Source: an uncultured bacterium (GTDB lineage Bacteria > Cyanobacteriota > Vampirovibrionia > Obscuribacterales > Obscuribacteraceae). From it: a stretch of DNA of 38,903 nucleotides. Made by a program: the position numbers and the translations under genes. Positions 11,669 through 21,705 of the stretch are shown here, in pieces (position 1 is the first letter of the stretch; every line of letters starts with the position of its first letter). Under the pieces are notes generated by a model. It saw nothing but the letters and a program-made list of their open reading frames with translations. It made no database searches and was not told the DNA's origin. Location of the stretch: assembly GCA_913063055.1 (NCBI GenBank), contig CAJXZK010000016.1, forward strand, positions 1 through 38,903. Reading direction: 5' to 3'.

Positions 11669-13849
11669 TTGAACACACCTGAAGATCAAATTAGCGGCGA
11701 AAATAAAACAATTGTATTCACCTCCCAGGCGAATACATCTATTCAATATGCCATAGGCGATATTGTCGGCGAGAGCTATGTTTTACTGTCGCTTTTAGCC
11801 AGCGGTGGCATGGGCGTGCTATTTAAGGCTCGACATCTTCAACTGGACCGTATTTTCGCCCTAAAACTATTGCCGCCCAGCCAAGTTAGCGAAATCAACT
11901 GGCGTCGCTTTGAGCTGGAAGGCCGAGCCTTAGCTCAGCTAAACCATCCAAACATTGTGCAAATCTACAACATGGGTGTGGACAAAAAGGGTTGCCCATT
12001 CTATGTAATGGAATTGCTTGAGGGTCAATCAATGGCCGACTACATTCAGTCTCAAAGCATGCCGATGGAACAGTTCTTACAGTCCTTCAAAGAAGTCTGT
12101 GCAGCACTGCAGCTCACTCACAGCAAAGGCATTGTGCACCGCGATATAAAACCATCCAATCTATTTATGGTGCAGTCTAGCTCTGGTTCTGCTTCTGGTT
12201 CTAGTTCCCATACAAGAAGTACAAAAGTAGTCGACTTTGGCATAGCCCGACTAACTGGTAGTGAAGGTCAAAACCTGCAAGGTCTTACGCGCCCAGGCGA
12301 AGTCTTTGGCAGCCCAGCCTATATGAGCCCAGAACAGACAGAAGGAAAGGCCGTCACAGCGGCGACTGACATTTATTCACTGGGCTGCACTATGTATGCG
12401 GCCCTGACTGGCCACGCGCCGTTTAAGGGCAGCACAGCTATTGAGACCATGATGGCCCATCAAGTAGACCAAGTGCCTGAAATAAAGCGCCCTGATTTTA
12501 GCCCTGGTCAGAACAATGCTTGCAACCGCATCATCGCCAGATGCATGGAAAAGGCCCCGGAGGACCGTTTCGCCAATGTCGAGCAGATTGCTCGGTTACT
12601 CGACACCATTGAAAGTGGCGACTTAAGGCCAGATAAAAGAGACAAAGAAGCAGACCGCCCAGGCCATTTTCAGAGTGACAAAAATAATGATGACACAACA
12701 ACAACCAGCACAATAACCAGCACCGCTGCCCAGGGTGGGAATCAAACGAAATGGCTTATTATTGCCGCAATTTCTACTCTGATTGTCACTGGCACAATTG
12801 TAGCTGCGGCCTTGCAACTCAATTCAATAACACAAAGGCGGCAAGTCGACACTGCAGATCTTCCAGGCACAATCTCGCCAGAAGCCCAAAGACGCAATGC
12901 CAGTGTAAAGCTGATGCAAGAAAAAATGCCTGCGGTTCCAGAAAAAATCGACCTAGAAGTTTGCATCAAACGGTCAAACAAAGCCCTTTCCGAGATCGAA
13001 GAAATAGAAGGGAAAGAGCACCGAGTCTTCAACTTTCCGAGCGATACTTCCATCGGTTATGTTGCTCCCAATAAAGCCATCGAAAAGATGATCAAGGTCA
13101 GCACGGGTTCAAGCAAGCGCCTCGAGCAACCAGCCCAGGGTAAGATAATTTGGCCTGACATCCAGCCGGTAAGCTTTACTGGCGGAAGTAAAATAACCAA
13201 TTTCCCTGAAATATACGAGCACTTTGATGACGATGCCATAGCTAGTCTCACTTTAAAAGGAGCCAACCGCCTTCCAGCAATTGAAACCCTGGCGAACTGG
13301 CGCAATTTAAGGTGGCTTACATTGCAAGACTGTGATCTTGATGCAAAATACACAAAGGGTCTAGGTCAGCTAAAACACTTACAATCACTGACCCTAAAGC
13401 AGACTAAATTTGACGTCGATAGCATTAAAGAACTTAGCCTTCTACCGCAATTAAGATCTCTACAATTAGACCAAATTGAAGGACACTCTCAAATCTTGCA
13501 AGCCTTAGCAAACAGCGAACTGCTCTATCACCTGGAACTAAGAGGTCTCAAACTAAGTGATGCGGATTTGCAACTGCTTACGACTCTTCCCAAATTGACA
13601 CAACTTGACCTGCGCGCTGCCACACTGCCAGCCAATGCGATGAAAAAGTTGAGCCAAATAAAGAGCTTATTCTCACTAAGCCTGGACAAAGCAAAATACG
13701 AGCCCGAAGCACTCTTTGATCTAGGTACGAGCATAAGCCTGCGCAAAATATACGTCAGCCCTGATGTTCCCACAGATCAGATGCTTGGGCGCTTTCGCAA
13801 ACGCTTTGCCAATATCAAAATAGTGAGAAAAGAGTCACAAGGACTCTAG
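11669..13849 (+). CDS. receptor-like Ser/Thr protein kinase 1 with LRR ectodomain
   Basis: The 726-aa protein starts at TTG. Residues about 37-315 are a Hanks-type kinase: glycine loop ASGGMG (44-49), K66, catalytic D159 in HRDIKPSN, DFG at 189-191 and an APE-like SPEQ. A Ser/Gly-rich insert (about 170-184) sits between catalytic loop and DFG, an unusual place. A basic, acidic and Thr-rich linker leads to one membrane span (about 362-384). The outer part has the entry motif FPSDTSIG (about 454) and LRRs from about 510 to 700 (LRWLTLQDC, LQSLTLKQT, LRSLQLDQ, LTQLDLRAA). All catalytic residues are present, so it should phosphorylate Ser/Thr in response to an extracytoplasmic signal. This is the most diverged of the three kinases here. 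Confidence 0.95.
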   Translation: MNTPEDQISGENKTIVFTSQANTSIQYAIGDIVGESYVLLSLLASGGMGVLFKARHLQLDRIFALKLLPPSQVSEINWRRFELEGRALAQLNHPNIVQIYNMGVDKKGCPFYVMELLEGQSMADYIQSQSMPMEQFLQSFKEVCAALQLTHSKGIVHRDIKPSNLFMVQSSSGSASGSSSHTRSTKVVDFGIARLTGSEGQNLQGLTRPGEVFGSPAYMSPEQTEGKAVTAATDIYSLGCTMYAALTGHAPFKGSTAIETMMAHQVDQVPEIKRPDFSPGQNNACNRIIARCMEKAPEDRFANVEQIARLLDTIESGDLRPDKRDKEADRPGHFQSDKNNDDTTTTSTITSTAAQGGNQTKWLIIAAISTLIVTGTIVAAALQLNSITQRRQVDTADLPGTISPEAQRRNASVKLMQEKMPAVPEKIDLEVCIKRSNKALSEIEEIEGKEHRVFNFPSDTSIGYVAPNKAIEKMIKVSTGSSKRLEQPAQGKIIWPDIQPVSFTGGSKITNFPEIYEHFDDDAIASLTLKGANRLPAIETLANWRNLRWLTLQDCDLDAKYTKGLGQLKHLQSLTLKQTKFDVDSIKELSLLPQLRSLQLDQIEGHSQILQALANSELLYHLELRGLKLSDADLQLLTTLPKLTQLDLRAATLPANAMKKLSQIKSLFSLSLDKAKYEPEALFDLGTSISLRKIYVSPDVPTDQMLGRFRKRFANIKIVRKESQGL

Positions 13850-15998: not shown

Positions 15999-16050
15999 GG
16001 AACCCCTTTCAAAAACTGGCACTAACAACCGCAATTCAGATTAGAGATTA

Positions 16051-16074
16051 TAGAGGATTATCACAGCTCCTCTA
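16051..16074. promoter_or_regulatory. inverted repeat between divergent M13 and thioredoxin genes
   Basis: TAGAGGA (16051-16057) and TCCTCTA (16068-16074) form a perfect 7-bp inverted repeat with a 10-nt spacer, midway between the two divergent start codons. The geometry fits a dimeric repressor or activator site controlling one or both genes. No T-run follows on either strand, so it is not an obvious terminator. Confidence 0.45.
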
Positions 16075-16133
16075 AACTAACTACTAGCAATCATCAAAGC
16101 TATAAAACTATCGTTGCTTCGACCGGAGGTTTT

Positions 16134-16847
16134 ATGTACAGCCGCAAATCGCAAACAAAAGCCCGAAAAGGCAGCCCGGGCTTAAGTGCCCTTATTTCGC
16201 TGGGCCTTTTCTTTTGCCAATTTAGCCCAGCACTTGCTGCGCCGTCGTACCCTCAGGCCAAAGCCGACTATGATAGCGGCAAGTATTCGCAAGCTCTAGC
16301 AGCATTCCAGGCCCTGAGCGCCACCTACCCAACTAACGCCCTGGTGCACTATTACTTGGCACTCTGTCACCAAAATCTCGGTCACCTGGGGCAAGCAAAA
16401 GCTGAGTACCAAATTGTGGTTAGCAGCGGTCAGCCACAACTAGTTCCTCTGGCCGCCAAGGGCCTGGCCACTTTGGCTGGGGCCCGTTCTAGTTCTGGTT
16501 CTGGTTCTAGCGCAAGCGCTTCATTTAGCGCTCCTAGCCATGAAAGCAGCACTGGTTCGAAAGTCGCCATGGGCAAAGTGAAGAAAGTGCTCGAATTCTG
16601 GGCCGAGTGGTGAGGGCCTTGTAAAACATTTGCGCCCGTGTTTGGCGCAACAAAGTCTAAGTTTTCTGATATACGATTCGAAGAACTCAATGTAGATGAT
16701 GGAGCTACCAAAGAACTCTCAGCCAAGTATGGCGTCAGCGGCATACCTTGCGTAGTTTTCTTAGATGGTTCCGGCAATGTGCTCTTCAAGGGTGGCCCGC
16801 AGCGAGATGTAGAAGGATTTTCTGAACAGATACAGCAATATCGTTGA
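16134..16847 (+). CDS. exported TPR-thioredoxin, probable selenoprotein (in-frame TGA = Sec160)
   Basis: One reading frame of 237 residues is interrupted only by TGA at 16611-16613. Before it are a GGAGG site 4 nt from the ATG, a signal peptide (likely cleavage after ALA near residue 35), one or two TPR units (about 38-115) and a Ser/Gly linker (about 118-140). Around the TGA the protein reads VLEFWAEW-[TGA]-GPCKTFAPVF, so TGA replaces the first cysteine of the thioredoxin WCGPC motif. C163 remains, cis-Pro 205 sits in GIPC, and C206 is an extra cysteine. A SECIS-like hairpin follows. TGA is otherwise a normal stop, including this gene's own terminal TGA. Alternatives are a sequencing error or a pseudogene; the intact downstream frame and the hairpin argue against decay. 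Kinase 2 starts 7 nt later. Confidence 0.82.
16630..16650 (+). promoter_or_regulatory. bacterial SECIS-like hairpin for Sec insertion
   Basis: TTGCGCC (16630-16636) pairs perfectly with GGCGCAA (16644-16650) around the loop CGTGTTT (16637-16643). The loop has G at its second position and begins 23 nt after the TGA, as I recall the bacterial SECIS rules recognised by SelB. A competing weaker pairing (GGGC 16614-16617 with GCCC 16634-16637) is possible. Confidence 0.72.
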
Positions 16848-16854
16848 CGGCTAG

Positions 16855-18990
16855 ATGACAAATCCGAACAAGCTTGAAAGTGGCACCATTTTCGGTGCCA
16901 CTTATAAGATTATTGACTTTATTGGCGAAGGCGGCATGGGCTTGGTCTATAAGGTCGAGCATTTGCTCCTGAGCAAACTGCTTGCACTGAAAATATTGAA
17001 AACTGAGAATCTCACTGAAGCAGTATGGAAAAGATTTCGCGCTGAAGGGCAAGCCATAGCCAGACTAGATCACAGCAATATTGTACGCATCTACGACATG
17101 AGTCAAAGCGAAGATGGTGTGCCTTTCTATACTATGGACCTACTAATCGGTCAGTCACTGGCCGACTACCTGCAAGAAAACCGCCGACTTACCGAAGCAG
17201 AAGCTCTACCAATTTTCAGACAAGTGAGTGCTGGTCTGGCCTATGCCCACGAACGAGGAATCATTCACCGCGATATCAAGCCAGGCAATATCATGCTTAT
17301 CGACAGAGCTGAGGCCGACAAAACAGAGGCTGTAGATATCAGCAAAAAGCTCGTAAAAATTGTCGACTTTGGCATTGCCAAGCTCACCGATGAAAGAGGC
17401 AATACAATTCAAGGCCTGACTAAACCAGGCGAAGTTTTCGGCAGCCCCCTGTACATGAGCCCTGAACAATGTAACGGCCAAAAAGTTGATCAACGAAGCG
17501 ATCTCTATTCTGTGGGCATCACTCTTTTTCAAGCTCTAACTGGCAAACCACCTTTGCTCGGTAAAACAGCAATTGAAACCACAATCATGCACCAAACAAC
17601 TAAGCCAGCCAGGCTGAACGATCTATCCGACCAAGTCGAATATTCGCCCAGGCTTGAGGCATTAGTGGCCAAGATGCTAGAAAAGCGACCTCAGGATAGA
17701 TACAGCTCGCTAGCCGAAGTAGCAAAAGAGCTATTAGAGATTGAACGCTCTGAAGAGAAAGAGAAAGGGGTTGGACTAAGGAAAGTACCAGCCATGGTGC
17801 CGAACAAACATATTGATTTACAAGAAGACAGTCAGACCATCTCTAAGCCTCAGAGTATCTTCAGTACCAACAATATAGTGGCATTCACAGCTATTGCCAC
17901 CATGCTTGCAGCGGCAGGGATTGCCATAACAATTATTGTTGGCACTGAGGCCAAAGACAAGCAGAAGCAAGCTCAAATAATACAAGCGAAAATAGAAGAA
18001 AAGGAAGAAGCAGATCAAGTTAGACGAGCCTGGAATCTACCACCTGAACCGGAAATCAAGAAACGGCAAATATCTACTATCCTTCAGCCCGTTCTCAATC
18101 AAGCAACCAATGATGCAGTAAAAGCCTTTCTGCAAAGCAATGAAAATAAGTTTTCGCAATCGAAACTAGTCGCCAGCAAAAAACAATTGACCTTCAATTT
18201 TCCGCAAGACTTTTCCTTGGGTAAGCTGGTCTGTCTGGGAGAGCACAACGATATTTCTGAAACTCAAGCACAAAGGCAAGTAATTGTGCCAGAGATGACT
18301 CTGCGACGGCTGCACTGCAACGATGTCGTGCGAGCTTATCCCCAACTATTGACCTATTTTGCCCCAGGCGATTTATGGTCTTTGATTTTCGAAGGACAAT
18401 CTTCCAACCCGGAGCTCTTGGTCACAAGCATTGGCGAGATGAAAGACTTGCATATTCTCAGTCTAACAAGAACAATCTTGCCTGATGACAAACTAACCAG
18501 TCTCGATGCTCTAAAGAGTCTCCAGACACTAGGACTAGCAAACACTCAATTCAATTCCACAAGCCTCTCCAAATGCCAATTTCTCGGCCACCTACAAAGT
18601 TTAGATCTAGAAAACGGCGAAAAGCTTCTGCCACTTTTAGAAAAGCTAAAACAGAGCAATCACTTGGATAGCCTGGTCCTGAGCAAATGCGCTTTAGACA
18701 ATGACGAAATCAAGGCAGTGAGCGAGATGACAAAACTAAAGAAACTCACCTTGAGCAAGAGCAAAGTTTCAAATAACGATCTAAAGCAACTTACCAGCTT
18801 GTCAAGACTAGAAGAGCTAAACCTCGAAAAGTGCAGTAATTTAGACAGTTCCTGCCTGCAGGCATTGAAAACCTGGCCCCGATTATCAACCCTGAAGCTA
18901 TCACCAGGTCTGCTAAGCGCCGCCCAGATTAAGGAACTACAAGACCTCCAGCGGCAGCGCTACATTGAGTTGAATGTCTCCAATAACTAG
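16855..18990 (+). CDS. receptor-like Ser/Thr protein kinase 2 with LRR ectodomain
   Basis: The 711-aa protein starts at ATG, 7 nt after the thioredoxin stop, so the two genes are probably co-transcribed. The kinase domain (about 17-295) has glycine loop GEGGMG (24-29), K46, D140 in HRDIKPGN, D171 of DFG and activation-segment GEVFGSPLYMSPEQ, all intact. After a charged linker there is one membrane span (about 341-363), a short coiled, Lys/Glu-rich stretch (KDKQKQAQIIQAKIEEKEEA), then the entry motif FNFPQDFSLGK (447-457) and LRRs to the C-terminus (LHILSLTRT, LQTLGLANT, LKKLTLSKS, LEELNLEKC). The kinase faces the cytoplasm and the LRR domain the outside. It is closest to kinase 3 (shared GLVYKVEH, YDMSQ, IHRDIKPGNIML), which suggests duplication. 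The ligand is unknown. Confidence 0.96.
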   Translation: MTNPNKLESGTIFGATYKIIDFIGEGGMGLVYKVEHLLLSKLLALKILKTENLTEAVWKRFRAEGQAIARLDHSNIVRIYDMSQSEDGVPFYTMDLLIGQSLADYLQENRRLTEAEALPIFRQVSAGLAYAHERGIIHRDIKPGNIMLIDRAEADKTEAVDISKKLVKIVDFGIAKLTDERGNTIQGLTKPGEVFGSPLYMSPEQCNGQKVDQRSDLYSVGITLFQALTGKPPLLGKTAIETTIMHQTTKPARLNDLSDQVEYSPRLEALVAKMLEKRPQDRYSSLAEVAKELLEIERSEEKEKGVGLRKVPAMVPNKHIDLQEDSQTISKPQSIFSTNNIVAFTAIATMLAAAGIAITIIVGTEAKDKQKQAQIIQAKIEEKEEADQVRRAWNLPPEPEIKKRQISTILQPVLNQATNDAVKAFLQSNENKFSQSKLVASKKQLTFNFPQDFSLGKLVCLGEHNDISETQAQRQVIVPEMTLRRLHCNDVVRAYPQLLTYFAPGDLWSLIFEGQSSNPELLVTSIGEMKDLHILSLTRTILPDDKLTSLDALKSLQTLGLANTQFNSTSLSKCQFLGHLQSLDLENGEKLLPLLEKLKQSNHLDSLVLSKCALDNDEIKAVSEMTKLKKLTLSKSKVSNNDLKQLTSLSRLEELNLEKCSNLDSSCLQALKTWPRLSTLKLSPGLLSAAQIKELQDLQRQRYIELNVSNN

Positions 18991-19096: not shown

Positions 19097-19621
19097 GTGA
19101 GCAAAATCGTTAAAGACAAAGAGAAAGAAGTAGCTTTTAACCAAGCACCAAATATGGTTGCTAATGCTTCAGCAAAAGACGGCGCCCCAAGCAAAATAGT
19201 CAAAGCAAAAGAAACAATGAGCTTTGTCGCCACTTCTATTCCTGTCATTGGATTTGTTGGCACCATCGCAGTCTGGACCGCGACCAATTACTATGTCGGT
19301 GATGTGGTTGTGGAAACCAGCAAACCTTTCACCACTCTTACAGTCAAAGCTTTTGATAAAAAGGGGCAAGAATCAACCTTCCACACCCCGCGCTTTCAAC
19401 TAATGCCCGGAAGCTACCACCTGGAAATTCAAGCAGACAGTGCCAAACCTCAACATGCCGACACTGAAGTAATTTTTCAAAAGACAGCAACGGTGCCTGT
19501 AAGTATTAATGGCAGCACTGAAGACCTGAGCAGTAAAGAACAGAGCAGTGAAACTGAGAATTCCGCTAATAGTCAAAAGAAACGTCACTGGTGGCAACTC
19601 TGGCGGCGTTCTGAAAATTGA
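19097..19621 (+). CDS. single-span membrane protein with PEGA-like outer domain
   Basis: The 174-aa protein starts at GTG. Residues 1-40 are charged and probably cytoplasmic, about 43-66 form one membrane span (FVATSIPVIGFVGTIAVWTA), and about 70-135 look like a small beta domain: VVVETSKPFTTLTVKAFDKKG...FQLMPGSYHLEIQAD, where the P-G-S-Y-x-L-E-I turn resembles PEGA-type domains often found with bacterial Ser/Thr kinases. The C-terminus is polar and ends with a Trp/Arg cluster (HWWQLWRR). It sits between kinases 2 and 3 and overlaps kinase 3 by 4 nt (TTGA), so translation is probably coupled. A role as partner or substrate of these kinases is inference. Confidence 0.75.
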   Translation: MSKIVKDKEKEVAFNQAPNMVANASAKDGAPSKIVKAKETMSFVATSIPVIGFVGTIAVWTATNYYVGDVVVETSKPFTTLTVKAFDKKGQESTFHTPRFQLMPGSYHLEIQADSAKPQHADTEVIFQKTATVPVSINGSTEDLSSKEQSSETENSANSQKKRHWWQLWRRSEN

Positions 19622-21705
19622 GCGATAACTTTAAGACAGGCTCATTGATTGCCGGTACCTATAGAGTATTAGACTTTATTGGTGAAGGAGCAATGGGCCT
19701 TGTTTATAAAGTCGAGCATACCCTGCTCAATAAAGTTCTAGCCTTCAAAGTTCTAAAAACAGAGCATCTTTCAGAGTCAGTTTGGAAGCGATTTCACATC
19801 GAGGCCCAGGCAATTGCGAGGCTTGCGCATCCAAACATAGTCAAAATCTATGACATGAGCCAAACAGAAGATGGGACGCCATTCTTTACTATGGACTTCC
19901 TGGTCGGGCAATCCCTCGATGACTATTTGCAAGAATACGGCAGACTAACGGTCGAAGAGGCTCTGCCAATCTTTCGCCAAATCTGCTCGGGGCTAGCTTA
20001 CGCCAACGATCACGGCATAATTCACCGCGATATAAAGCCGGGCAATATCATGTTGACCGACATCAAGGATGACAATATCGCTCAATGCACTGTGAAAATT
20101 GTCGACTTCGGCATAGCCAAATTAGTTGACGATGGCAACACGGCGCAGCAGGGGTTAACCAAGCCGGGCGAAGTTTTCGGCAGCCCGCTCTATATGAGCC
20201 CAGAGCAATGCATGGGCAGCAAGCTAGATCAACGCACCGATATGTATTCGGTAGGCATCACTATGTTTCAGGCGCTGACAGGCAGGCCACCACTTCTGGG
20301 CAAATCAGCCGTTGAAACAGCTGCTCTGCACCAAACCCAAGAGCCTCCCATGCTCCGCGATATTGCTCCCGATATAGATTTTCCAATTGAGCTAGAAGAA
20401 GTTATAGCAACTATGCTGGAAAAATCACGAGAGGATCGCTATTCATCATTGGCAGAAGTAGCCAACGAACTGCTGCGCATTGAAAGAGGCGAAGACAAAG
20501 TCAGCCCAAGAGAACGGTCAAAGAACGGCAGACACAGCCAAAATCAGTGGTTGCCTGATAGAGAAAGTAACTTAGACGACACCCAAAATCGCACCGGACA
20601 AAGAGCACAACCGCTAACAAAAGCGCAGCTCTTCTTAGTAGCCGCTCTAGCTCTCACAGGACTGGCCGCCACTCTCTATGTGTTGTTTCCTGTCAAGGTT
20701 AAAAGTGCAAAAACAGTAGCCACTTATGACCAGCTTGTACCCGGCCCCAAAGACGACACAAGTGAGAGCTATGAACTAATTAGTATGCCAGAAAGAAAAG
20801 ACGTCAACGAATACTTAACTAGCCACAAGGGCAGCTATAGTCGAACAGAAAATATCAATGGCAAACTTTTCAAAGTTTTCGACTTCCCTGAAAAATTCTC
20901 ACTAGGAAAATTCTACTACAACCACGGCCTAAAGGGCGATAGATTTGAAGCCATTGGAACGCACCGTATATCAGCCAGCAGCCAAACGAAACTCGAGGCT
21001 AATCAGTTTGTTGAAGCCTATCCTGAATTGATAACCAGGTTCAGCCCCGATGATCTCAACTGGTTCAGTATCAATGAAGTAGCACCGCGCAATCCTAAAC
21101 TGGCAACTAGTGTGGCGCATCTAAGATTGCTAGACCATCTTGATCTTAAGCGCTGCGCGCTCAATAGCGCCGACCTGAAAGTACTAGAAGCGCTAAAGAG
21201 GCTAACAATACTAAATATAAGCCAATCTGTGAAAAGTAAAGAATTGGCAGAATTTACCCTACTCAAACAAATCCGCTCCCTTCAACTTGAGTACTTAGAA
21301 GAGCCGTCAGTCTTAATCAAGGTCTTACAGCGCTACAATGTCCTTGAAGTCTTTGATCTGCGACACTCAAATTTGAGCAAAAATGATTTTATCTGTCTAT
21401 CACAAATGAATAAATTGGTATCACTAACAACCAAAGACTGCCACATGGCCGATAGCGATCTTGAACTGTTGTCCAAACTTCCGAATCTGAAACGCCTTAA
21501 TGTTGACGCTTGCAATGATCTAACCAGCAATTGTTTGGCTAGTCTCAAAAAATTCAAAAAGCTTGAAATACTTACTCTGCCCGAGGGCCTTTATCGAAAG
21601 CAGACCAAGAAGCAACTAGAGCAGCTCTTGCCTGGAATCATAGTTATCGAAGGCGACTCAAACAAAGGACTAATGCCTAAAATATCTGACGGCAAAGAAG
21701 ACTAA
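19618..21705 (+). CDS. receptor-like Ser/Thr protein kinase 3 with LRR ectodomain
   Basis: The 695-aa protein starts at TTG overlapping the previous stop by 4 nt. The kinase domain (about 15-290) has glycine loop GEGAMG (22-27), K44, D138 in HRDIKPGN and D163 of DFG, with the same activation segment as kinase 2 (GEVFGSPLYMSPEQC). A polar linker precedes one membrane span (about 337-357). The outer region carries VFDFPEKFSLGKFYY (starting about 420) and then LRRs (LDHLDLKRC, LTILNISQS, LEVFDLRHS, LKRLNVDAC), ending in LPEGLYRKQ...LLPG, like the end of the free exported LRR protein. All catalytic residues are present. Kinases 2 and 3 look like a duplication with strongly diverged LRR surfaces, suggesting different ligands. 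Confidence 0.96.
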   Translation: MSDNFKTGSLIAGTYRVLDFIGEGAMGLVYKVEHTLLNKVLAFKVLKTEHLSESVWKRFHIEAQAIARLAHPNIVKIYDMSQTEDGTPFFTMDFLVGQSLDDYLQEYGRLTVEEALPIFRQICSGLAYANDHGIIHRDIKPGNIMLTDIKDDNIAQCTVKIVDFGIAKLVDDGNTAQQGLTKPGEVFGSPLYMSPEQCMGSKLDQRTDMYSVGITMFQALTGRPPLLGKSAVETAALHQTQEPPMLRDIAPDIDFPIELEEVIATMLEKSREDRYSSLAEVANELLRIERGEDKVSPRERSKNGRHSQNQWLPDRESNLDDTQNRTGQRAQPLTKAQLFLVAALALTGLAATLYVLFPVKVKSAKTVATYDQLVPGPKDDTSESYELISMPERKDVNEYLTSHKGSYSRTENINGKLFKVFDFPEKFSLGKFYYNHGLKGDRFEAIGTHRISASSQTKLEANQFVEAYPELITRFSPDDLNWFSINEVAPRNPKLATSVAHLRLLDHLDLKRCALNSADLKVLEALKRLTILNISQSVKSKELAEFTLLKQIRSLQLEYLEEPSVLIKVLQRYNVLEVFDLRHSNLSKNDFICLSQMNKLVSLTTKDCHMADSDLELLSKLPNLKRLNVDACNDLTSNCLASLKKFKKLEILTLPEGLYRKQTKKQLEQLLPGIIVIEGDSNKGLMPKISDGKED

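Follow-up and report, generated by a model that had tools for sequence, protein, structure and literature searches.

A TPR-fused thioredoxin gene with an in-frame UGA codon: a probable exported selenoprotein of Obscuribacterales

We analysed a stretch of 38,903 nucleotides (hereafter, the window) from an uncultured bacterium of the Obscuribacteraceae family, whose draft genome (G000) consists of 395 contigs and is 91.6% complete with 4.4% contamination. The gene at positions 16134-16847 of its forward strand very likely encodes a 237-residue TPR-thioredoxin selenoprotein with a U-G-P-C active site, predicted to be exported. A sequence-only reading had already proposed a probable selenoprotein here, and the recurrence of the TGA codon in homologues, the selenocysteine (Sec) machinery and a conserved hairpin now support this proposal.

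Results

Gene and domain layout

A ribosome-binding site, GGAGG (16125-16129, forward strand, as are all features below), lies 4 nt 5' of the ATG at 16134, from which 237 codons run in one frame to the terminator at 16845-16847. The sole interruption of this frame is the TGA at 16611-16613, in the context LEFWAEW-U-GPCK; start, ribosome site and frame are just as the sequence-only reading had them. When this TGA is translated as U, a product of 237 residues results, with predicted Sec at residue 160. Since the gene's own terminator is again TGA, UGA needs two readings inside one gene.

The N-terminus of the product shows, by eye, a basic start, a hydrophobic run and A-L-A-A, so that residues 1-35 (16134-16238), up to A-L-A, form a candidate signal peptide, with low pLDDT in the structural model. 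It is followed by a TPR part of five helices (residues 39-120, 16248-16493; Pfam TPR PF14559, best stretch at residues 47-95), a Ser-rich linker disordered in the model (residues 121-149, 16494-16580) and a thioredoxin domain (residues 150-237, 16581-16844), the last being indicated by Pfam, the model and PDB matches. The read-through protein matches Thioredoxin PF00085 over residues 143-216 with 56.5 bits (cut-off 23.5). Sequence, PF00085 and the TPR match thus agree with the earlier claim that the TGA occupies the first catalytic position of W-x-G-P-C in a TPR-thioredoxin. The predicted resolving residue, Cys163 (16620-16622), and the predicted cis-proline of the thioredoxin fold, Pro205 (16746-16748), are also found where they had been placed, and both are invariant in 29 aligned sequences, including the window's.

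An AlphaFold2 model, built with Cys for Sec from 23 sequences, has a mean pLDDT of 82.8, with values of 93-98 in the TPR and thioredoxin blocks; its pTM of 0.45 makes the relative placing of the two parts unsure. The top PDB matches of the model are thioredoxins. None of the 17 listed NCBIfam thioredoxin and selenoprotein models reaches its curated cut-off on this protein, and the sole match to a selenoprotein model is TsoB, with 28.7 bits against a cut-off of 805.

The TGA codon recurs in homologues

Homologues were sought in six frames, in 60 relatives first and then in 50 genomes of the window's family. A TGA at the aligned position was present in 25 genes from 24 of the 50 family genomes, the window's included, and these TGA homologues were 32-92% identical to the window's protein, the highest value belonging to G005 from the same genus. 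The 50 family genomes gave 72 match rows, some of them two pieces of one gene: 25 with one inner TGA, one with TAA and 46 without a stop. Comparison of homologues, proposed earlier as a check, revealed either TGA or Cys at exactly the Sec position, the 19 Cys homologues examined having TGC (11) or TGT (8). The SECIS and tree comparisons below cover all 25 TGA rows and the 19 Cys homologues caught by a motif pattern, with further Cys rows lying outside. Among the rows listed, the TPR-thioredoxin is the only thioredoxin-domain gene with an inner TGA, in five of the six genomes of the genus; in the congeneric genome G001, residues 3-74 of a close homologue lie at a contig end.

Some variants deserve mention on their own. 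Two TGA copies stand in tandem at one locus (L020, G010:C15:223904-225251), and in L024 (G032) and L214 (G064) the active site is G-U-V-P-C and not W-U-G-P-C. In genus g23, several genomes have the TGA copy and Cys copies arranged in tandem, and in four (G027:C1, G068:C14, G070:C39 and G072:C414; loci L034, L209, L207 and L208) the TGA TPR-thioredoxin shares its contig with a tRNA-Sec gene at a distance of about 11-18 kb.

A draft genome of 395 contigs and a database annotation that ends at the TGA might suggest a sequencing error or a decaying pseudogene, the TGA being false or dead and only the TPR part being made. Such a reading is hard to reconcile with 25 genes from 24 genomes sharing this TGA, a recurrence which renders a base error very unlikely. 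The frame-destroying downstream changes that would have spoken for decay are absent: after the TGA, the frame is open for 75-79 codons in 25 of 25 genes. Furthermore, dN/dS after the TGA is 0.080 between G000 and G005, 0.079 between G000 and G004, and 0.12-0.19 in four further pairs (computable in six of eight pairs, with synonymous sites saturated in two), the values before the TGA being 0.04-0.24 where computable. The frame after the TGA is therefore under purifying selection, and synonymous sites past the TGA are frozen (see below). The earlier view that the gene is not decayed holds, and we give next to no credit to error or decay.

Another reading is that UGA is decoded as ordinary Trp or Cys, through code reassignment or plain read-through, with no selenium involved. 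Two full-length database proteins, P0003 and P0027, do have W at the Sec position, which probably reflects code-4 gene calls; Trp would not pair with the Cys of other homologues. UGA is, moreover, a normal stop here, ending 6 of 28 window frames counted, while the terminators of the 25 TGA genes are TAA (10), TAG (8) and TGA (7). Keeping in mind also that a hairpin with a GUGU loop is confined to TGA genes, and that SelA, SelB, SelD and tRNA-Sec are present, we consider decoding without selenium very improbable. Recurrence, selection and normal TGA stop use led us to rule out sequencing error, pseudogene and code reassignment.

The expectation that standard annotation splits the gene was borne out in part. 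Databases hold eleven entries of 157-161 residues with 83-99% identity, which correspond to the truncated TPR product (two are named "tetratricopeptide (TPR) repeat protein"), and this truncation explains how the TPR-Sec-thioredoxin was missed; P0003 and P0027, on the other hand, are full length. Entries of the latter type, which carry Trp where Sec is expected, could serve as leads to hidden selenoproteins.

A predicted SECIS hairpin follows the TGA

In TGA genes, a hairpin of the bacterial SECIS kind is conserved past the TGA, as the earlier reading had suggested looking for. In the window, it is predicted at 16630-16650 (alignment columns 20-40, T of TGA being column 1) from covariation, codon constraint and the GUGU pattern; the stem joins columns 20-24 to 40-36 and column 26 to column 34, and the loop of columns 27-33 reads CGTGTTT (16637-16643). 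A bacterial SECIS is a hairpin just past the UGA, with its loop 16-37 nt away and a G near the loop start, and the TGA genes show all of these features, G being at loop position 2 in 25 of 25. GUGU occupies columns 28-31 in all 25 TGA genes and in none of the 19 Cys homologues.

Codon choice speaks in the same direction. Val+9 is GTG in 25 of 25 TGA genes and Pro+8 is CCC in 24 of 25. At codons +6 to +13, the codon is identical in 77.7% of same-residue comparisons between TGA genes, versus 37.9% between Cys genes. Elsewhere in TGA genes, the identical-codon share is 39.6% upstream, 56.0% at +1 to +5 (52.3% in Cys genes) and 41.7% at +14 to +77.

Across 22 distinct TGA sequences, 94.7% of stem cells are paired (81.8% in shuffles), the covariation score is 0.346 (0.161 in shuffles) and 12 cells have a double change (3.3 in shuffles), each value being reached by 0 of 500 shuffles. 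Four of six stem pairs are changed on both sides (reached by 8 of 500 shuffles), and seven further pair types occur (19 of 500). Because this shuffling takes no account of relatedness, codon choice tests the hairpin better. Slid stem partners pair only 18-58% of cells. TGA genes form on average 5.7 of the six stem pairs versus 3.4 in Cys genes, one of which (the second copy of G027) forms all six. When 16 TGA sequences were folded singly, the hairpin was the minimum-energy fold in six, that of G000 among them; G016, G033 and G019 form 3-4 of six stem pairs, and in these, visual inspection suggests that the loop is closed by a C/G stem in a shifted register.

In the six frames of the window and of six further stretches from this genome, 45 TGAs have 60 or more open codons before them and 40 or more after; that at 16611-16613 alone is followed by CC[CG]GTGT at +14 to +35, this motif having been picked after the family had been seen. 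An Rfam scan of window positions 16000-17000 gave no match up to E 1. Judging from its conservation, we infer that the hairpin with the loop CGUGUUU is a SECIS element bound by SelB.

Selenocysteine machinery in the same genome and family

The earlier reading had pointed to the Sec machinery as a check, and the genome of the window indeed encodes tRNA-Sec (71.3 bits, cut-off 47; ARAGORN also calls SeC), SelA, SelD and SelB. Its SelB, a single 638-residue frame whose end is cut off by the contig, was matched in two segments and contains a low-complexity insert; TIGR00475 at 1e-60 did not detect it, but a search with SelB from a relative did. A low-complexity insert between two conserved segments, with no TIGR00475 match at 1e-60, characterises SelB of the window's genus (L233 at G000:C145; G002-G005). 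At G000:C28:9025-9729 on the reverse strand (in L232), a frame that by eye is TusA/YedF-like adjoins selD.

The 16 TGA genomes of the 60-genome set contain tRNA-Sec (16), SelB (16; eleven via the TIGR00475 profile and five via a relative's SelB query), SelA (15, no match in G033) and SelD (14, no match in G019 and G033). Across the 50 family genomes, tRNA-Sec was found in 22 of 24 genomes with a TGA gene versus 17 of 26 without one (Fisher p 0.04); the two TGA genomes in which it was not found, G066 and G071, are 75% and 83% complete. Nine family genomes in the first set, five of them 91-96% complete, have no tRNA-Sec, and none of these has a TGA gene. Of 14 well-known control genomes, five also score above the tRNA-Sec cut-off; among these five, SelA matches E. 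coli only and SelB matches E. coli and M. jannaschii only. The tRNA-Sec search is thus unspecific alone, and the weight lies with the joint presence of all four machinery parts. Scores for tRNA-Sec exceed the cut-off in 39 of the 50 family genomes, in all three genomes of a sister family and in none of 21 further genomes of the class, where SelA, SelB and SelD also gave no match. Within this sample, the Sec trait is therefore confined to one order.

Seventeen family genomes have tRNA-Sec and no TGA TPR-thioredoxin row (e.g., G001, G006, G008, G013, G017, G020, G021, and further G025, G026, G028, G031 and G036-G038), and one would therefore expect further selenoproteins in them. Formate dehydrogenase was tried as the usual Sec user and rejected: relatives of TIGR01591 are found at 1e-40 in 41 of 50 family genomes, 0 of 50 exceed the cut-off, and none of those listed has an inner stop.

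Exchanges between Sec and Cys

In a tree of 44 genes (25 TGA and 19 Cys) with the Sec column masked, six Sec/Cys changes are counted (5-7 in bootstraps), two of which are forced by well-supported branches. A single Sec clade was rejected (p-AU 1.45e-5), and the tree fits gain or loss alike.

Gene neighbourhood

An M13 peptidase gene adjoins the TPR-thioredoxin in all four genus relatives examined (G005, G004, G002 and G003), and a kinase gene follows it in three of these, not directly in G004. In six relatives examined from outside the genus, this neighbourhood is not kept. Being preserved within the genus only, the context yields no function for the protein. In the window itself, three Ser/Thr kinase genes lie close together (11669-13849, 16855-18990 and 19618-21705), the second starting 7 nt past the selenoprotein gene.

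Discussion

We propose that tRNA-Sec and SelB read the UGA at 16611-16613 as Sec, guided by the predicted hairpin that starts 16 nt past it. Outside the cytoplasm, Sec160 may then attack a disulfide or other oxidised sulfur of a client, as fold and motif suggest, and Cys163 would resolve the selenenylsulfide. Re-reduction might be carried out by a DsbD-like membrane protein encoded in the genome, while the TPR part could keep the client or a partner in place. An exported thiol-disulfide reductase, the function we infer, is consistent with the motif, the fold, the probable export and the DsbD-like gene. The DsbD-like gene is found in five of six genomes of the genus, and not in G002 (77% complete). 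In the window's own genome, it lies on contig C53, where it adjoins a thioredoxin gene, with a Cys paralogue of the TPR-thioredoxin 3 kb away, a location that gives only a hint of function.

The selenoprotein might instead act as a peroxidase or as an oxidant of exported proteins. Sec is often used in peroxide reduction, and several Cys relatives have C-H-V-C or C-H-Y-C, spacers which we take to be more like those of oxidants. TGA genes, by contrast, mostly encode U-G-P-C, with Ile before Pro in most, presumably as in thioredoxins; the best fold matches are thioredoxins as well, and a DsbD-like protein is on hand to supply electrons. A peroxidase or oxidant role thus appears possible but rather doubtful.

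When selenium is lacking, translation would end at the UGA, giving a TPR part of 159 residues. One may ask if this short protein is the main product of a two-product gene, the selenoprotein being minor or a selenium-set option. Any bacterial Sec UGA competes with termination, and the TPR part is conserved by itself. Cys homologues, however, yield the full protein with no stop, and the thioredoxin part is at least as constrained as the TPR part in two of the six computable pairs (less so in others), which together indicate that the full product matters. We therefore regard a mainly short product as unlikely, and retain the full-length selenoprotein.

Overall, a broader picture can be drawn only tentatively. 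The TPR-Sec-thioredoxin may be a new family and a main selenium user in Obscuribacterales, in which Cys and Sec were exchanged several times at one site and at least two separate Sec groups settled on the same GUGU loop, with the gene perhaps yielding, as set by selenium, either the TPR protein alone or an exported selenoenzyme.

Comparison with known systems

The available parts of two surveys state that the Sec trait was not detected in Cyanobacteria (PMC1794560; repeated in PMC9312934), so the use of Sec in Obscuribacterales would place it in a branch of the cyanobacterial phylum where surveys had found none. One Melainabacteria protein, PWT95605.1, carries Sec, with no other species in that set, according to the portion available of PMC9529120; Sec in this group is thus not wholly unreported. 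The 25 Sec and 19 Cys homologues offer a case where a SECIS element is readable from codon choice alone, and a natural series that makes the Cys-to-Sec exchange testable.

The sequence-only reading had also claimed novelty, which stands for the TPR-fused, probably exported family and for the lineage, and not for Sec in thioredoxin as such: the Sec thioredoxin (PF00085, UxxC) is listed in the accessible portions of PMC1794560, PMC9312934 and PMC13188914. The last of these, a 2026 inventory, includes in its accessible portion a PF13098 UxxC thiol:disulfide interchange protein, SaoT, a HUIPC motif and a TlpA-like UGC. "TPR" and "tetratricopeptide" are absent from its main text, and no TPR-thioredoxin selenoprotein appeared by title or abstract opening among the matches listed from the open-licence literature.

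As far as the available parts of PMC1794560 and PMC13188914 go, the window's protein resembles the bacterial Sec thioredoxin in its thioredoxin domain and in having Sec first and Cys second in the motif; it differs in that a TPR part and a probable signal peptide precede this domain, and in belonging to a lineage that those parts do not name. With the thioredoxin-like selenoproteins in the available part of PMC13188914, it shares a thioredoxin-like fold and Sec in the motif, whereas it falls below every NCBIfam cut-off. The Cys TPR-thioredoxins of the same family (e.g., those on G000:C88 and G000:C53) share both domains and their arrangement, at identities as low as about 31%; unlike the window's gene with its TGA, they have TGC or TGT, and lack the GUGU loop and the codon constraint there. 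Exported TlpA/ResA/DsbE thioredoxins are probably alike in location and redox chemistry, yet the window's sequence scores far below their cut-offs, and to our knowledge they have no TPR part. What is new is therefore the TPR-fused, probably exported Sec-thioredoxin family in Obscuribacterales, UxxC Sec-thioredoxins as such being already known.
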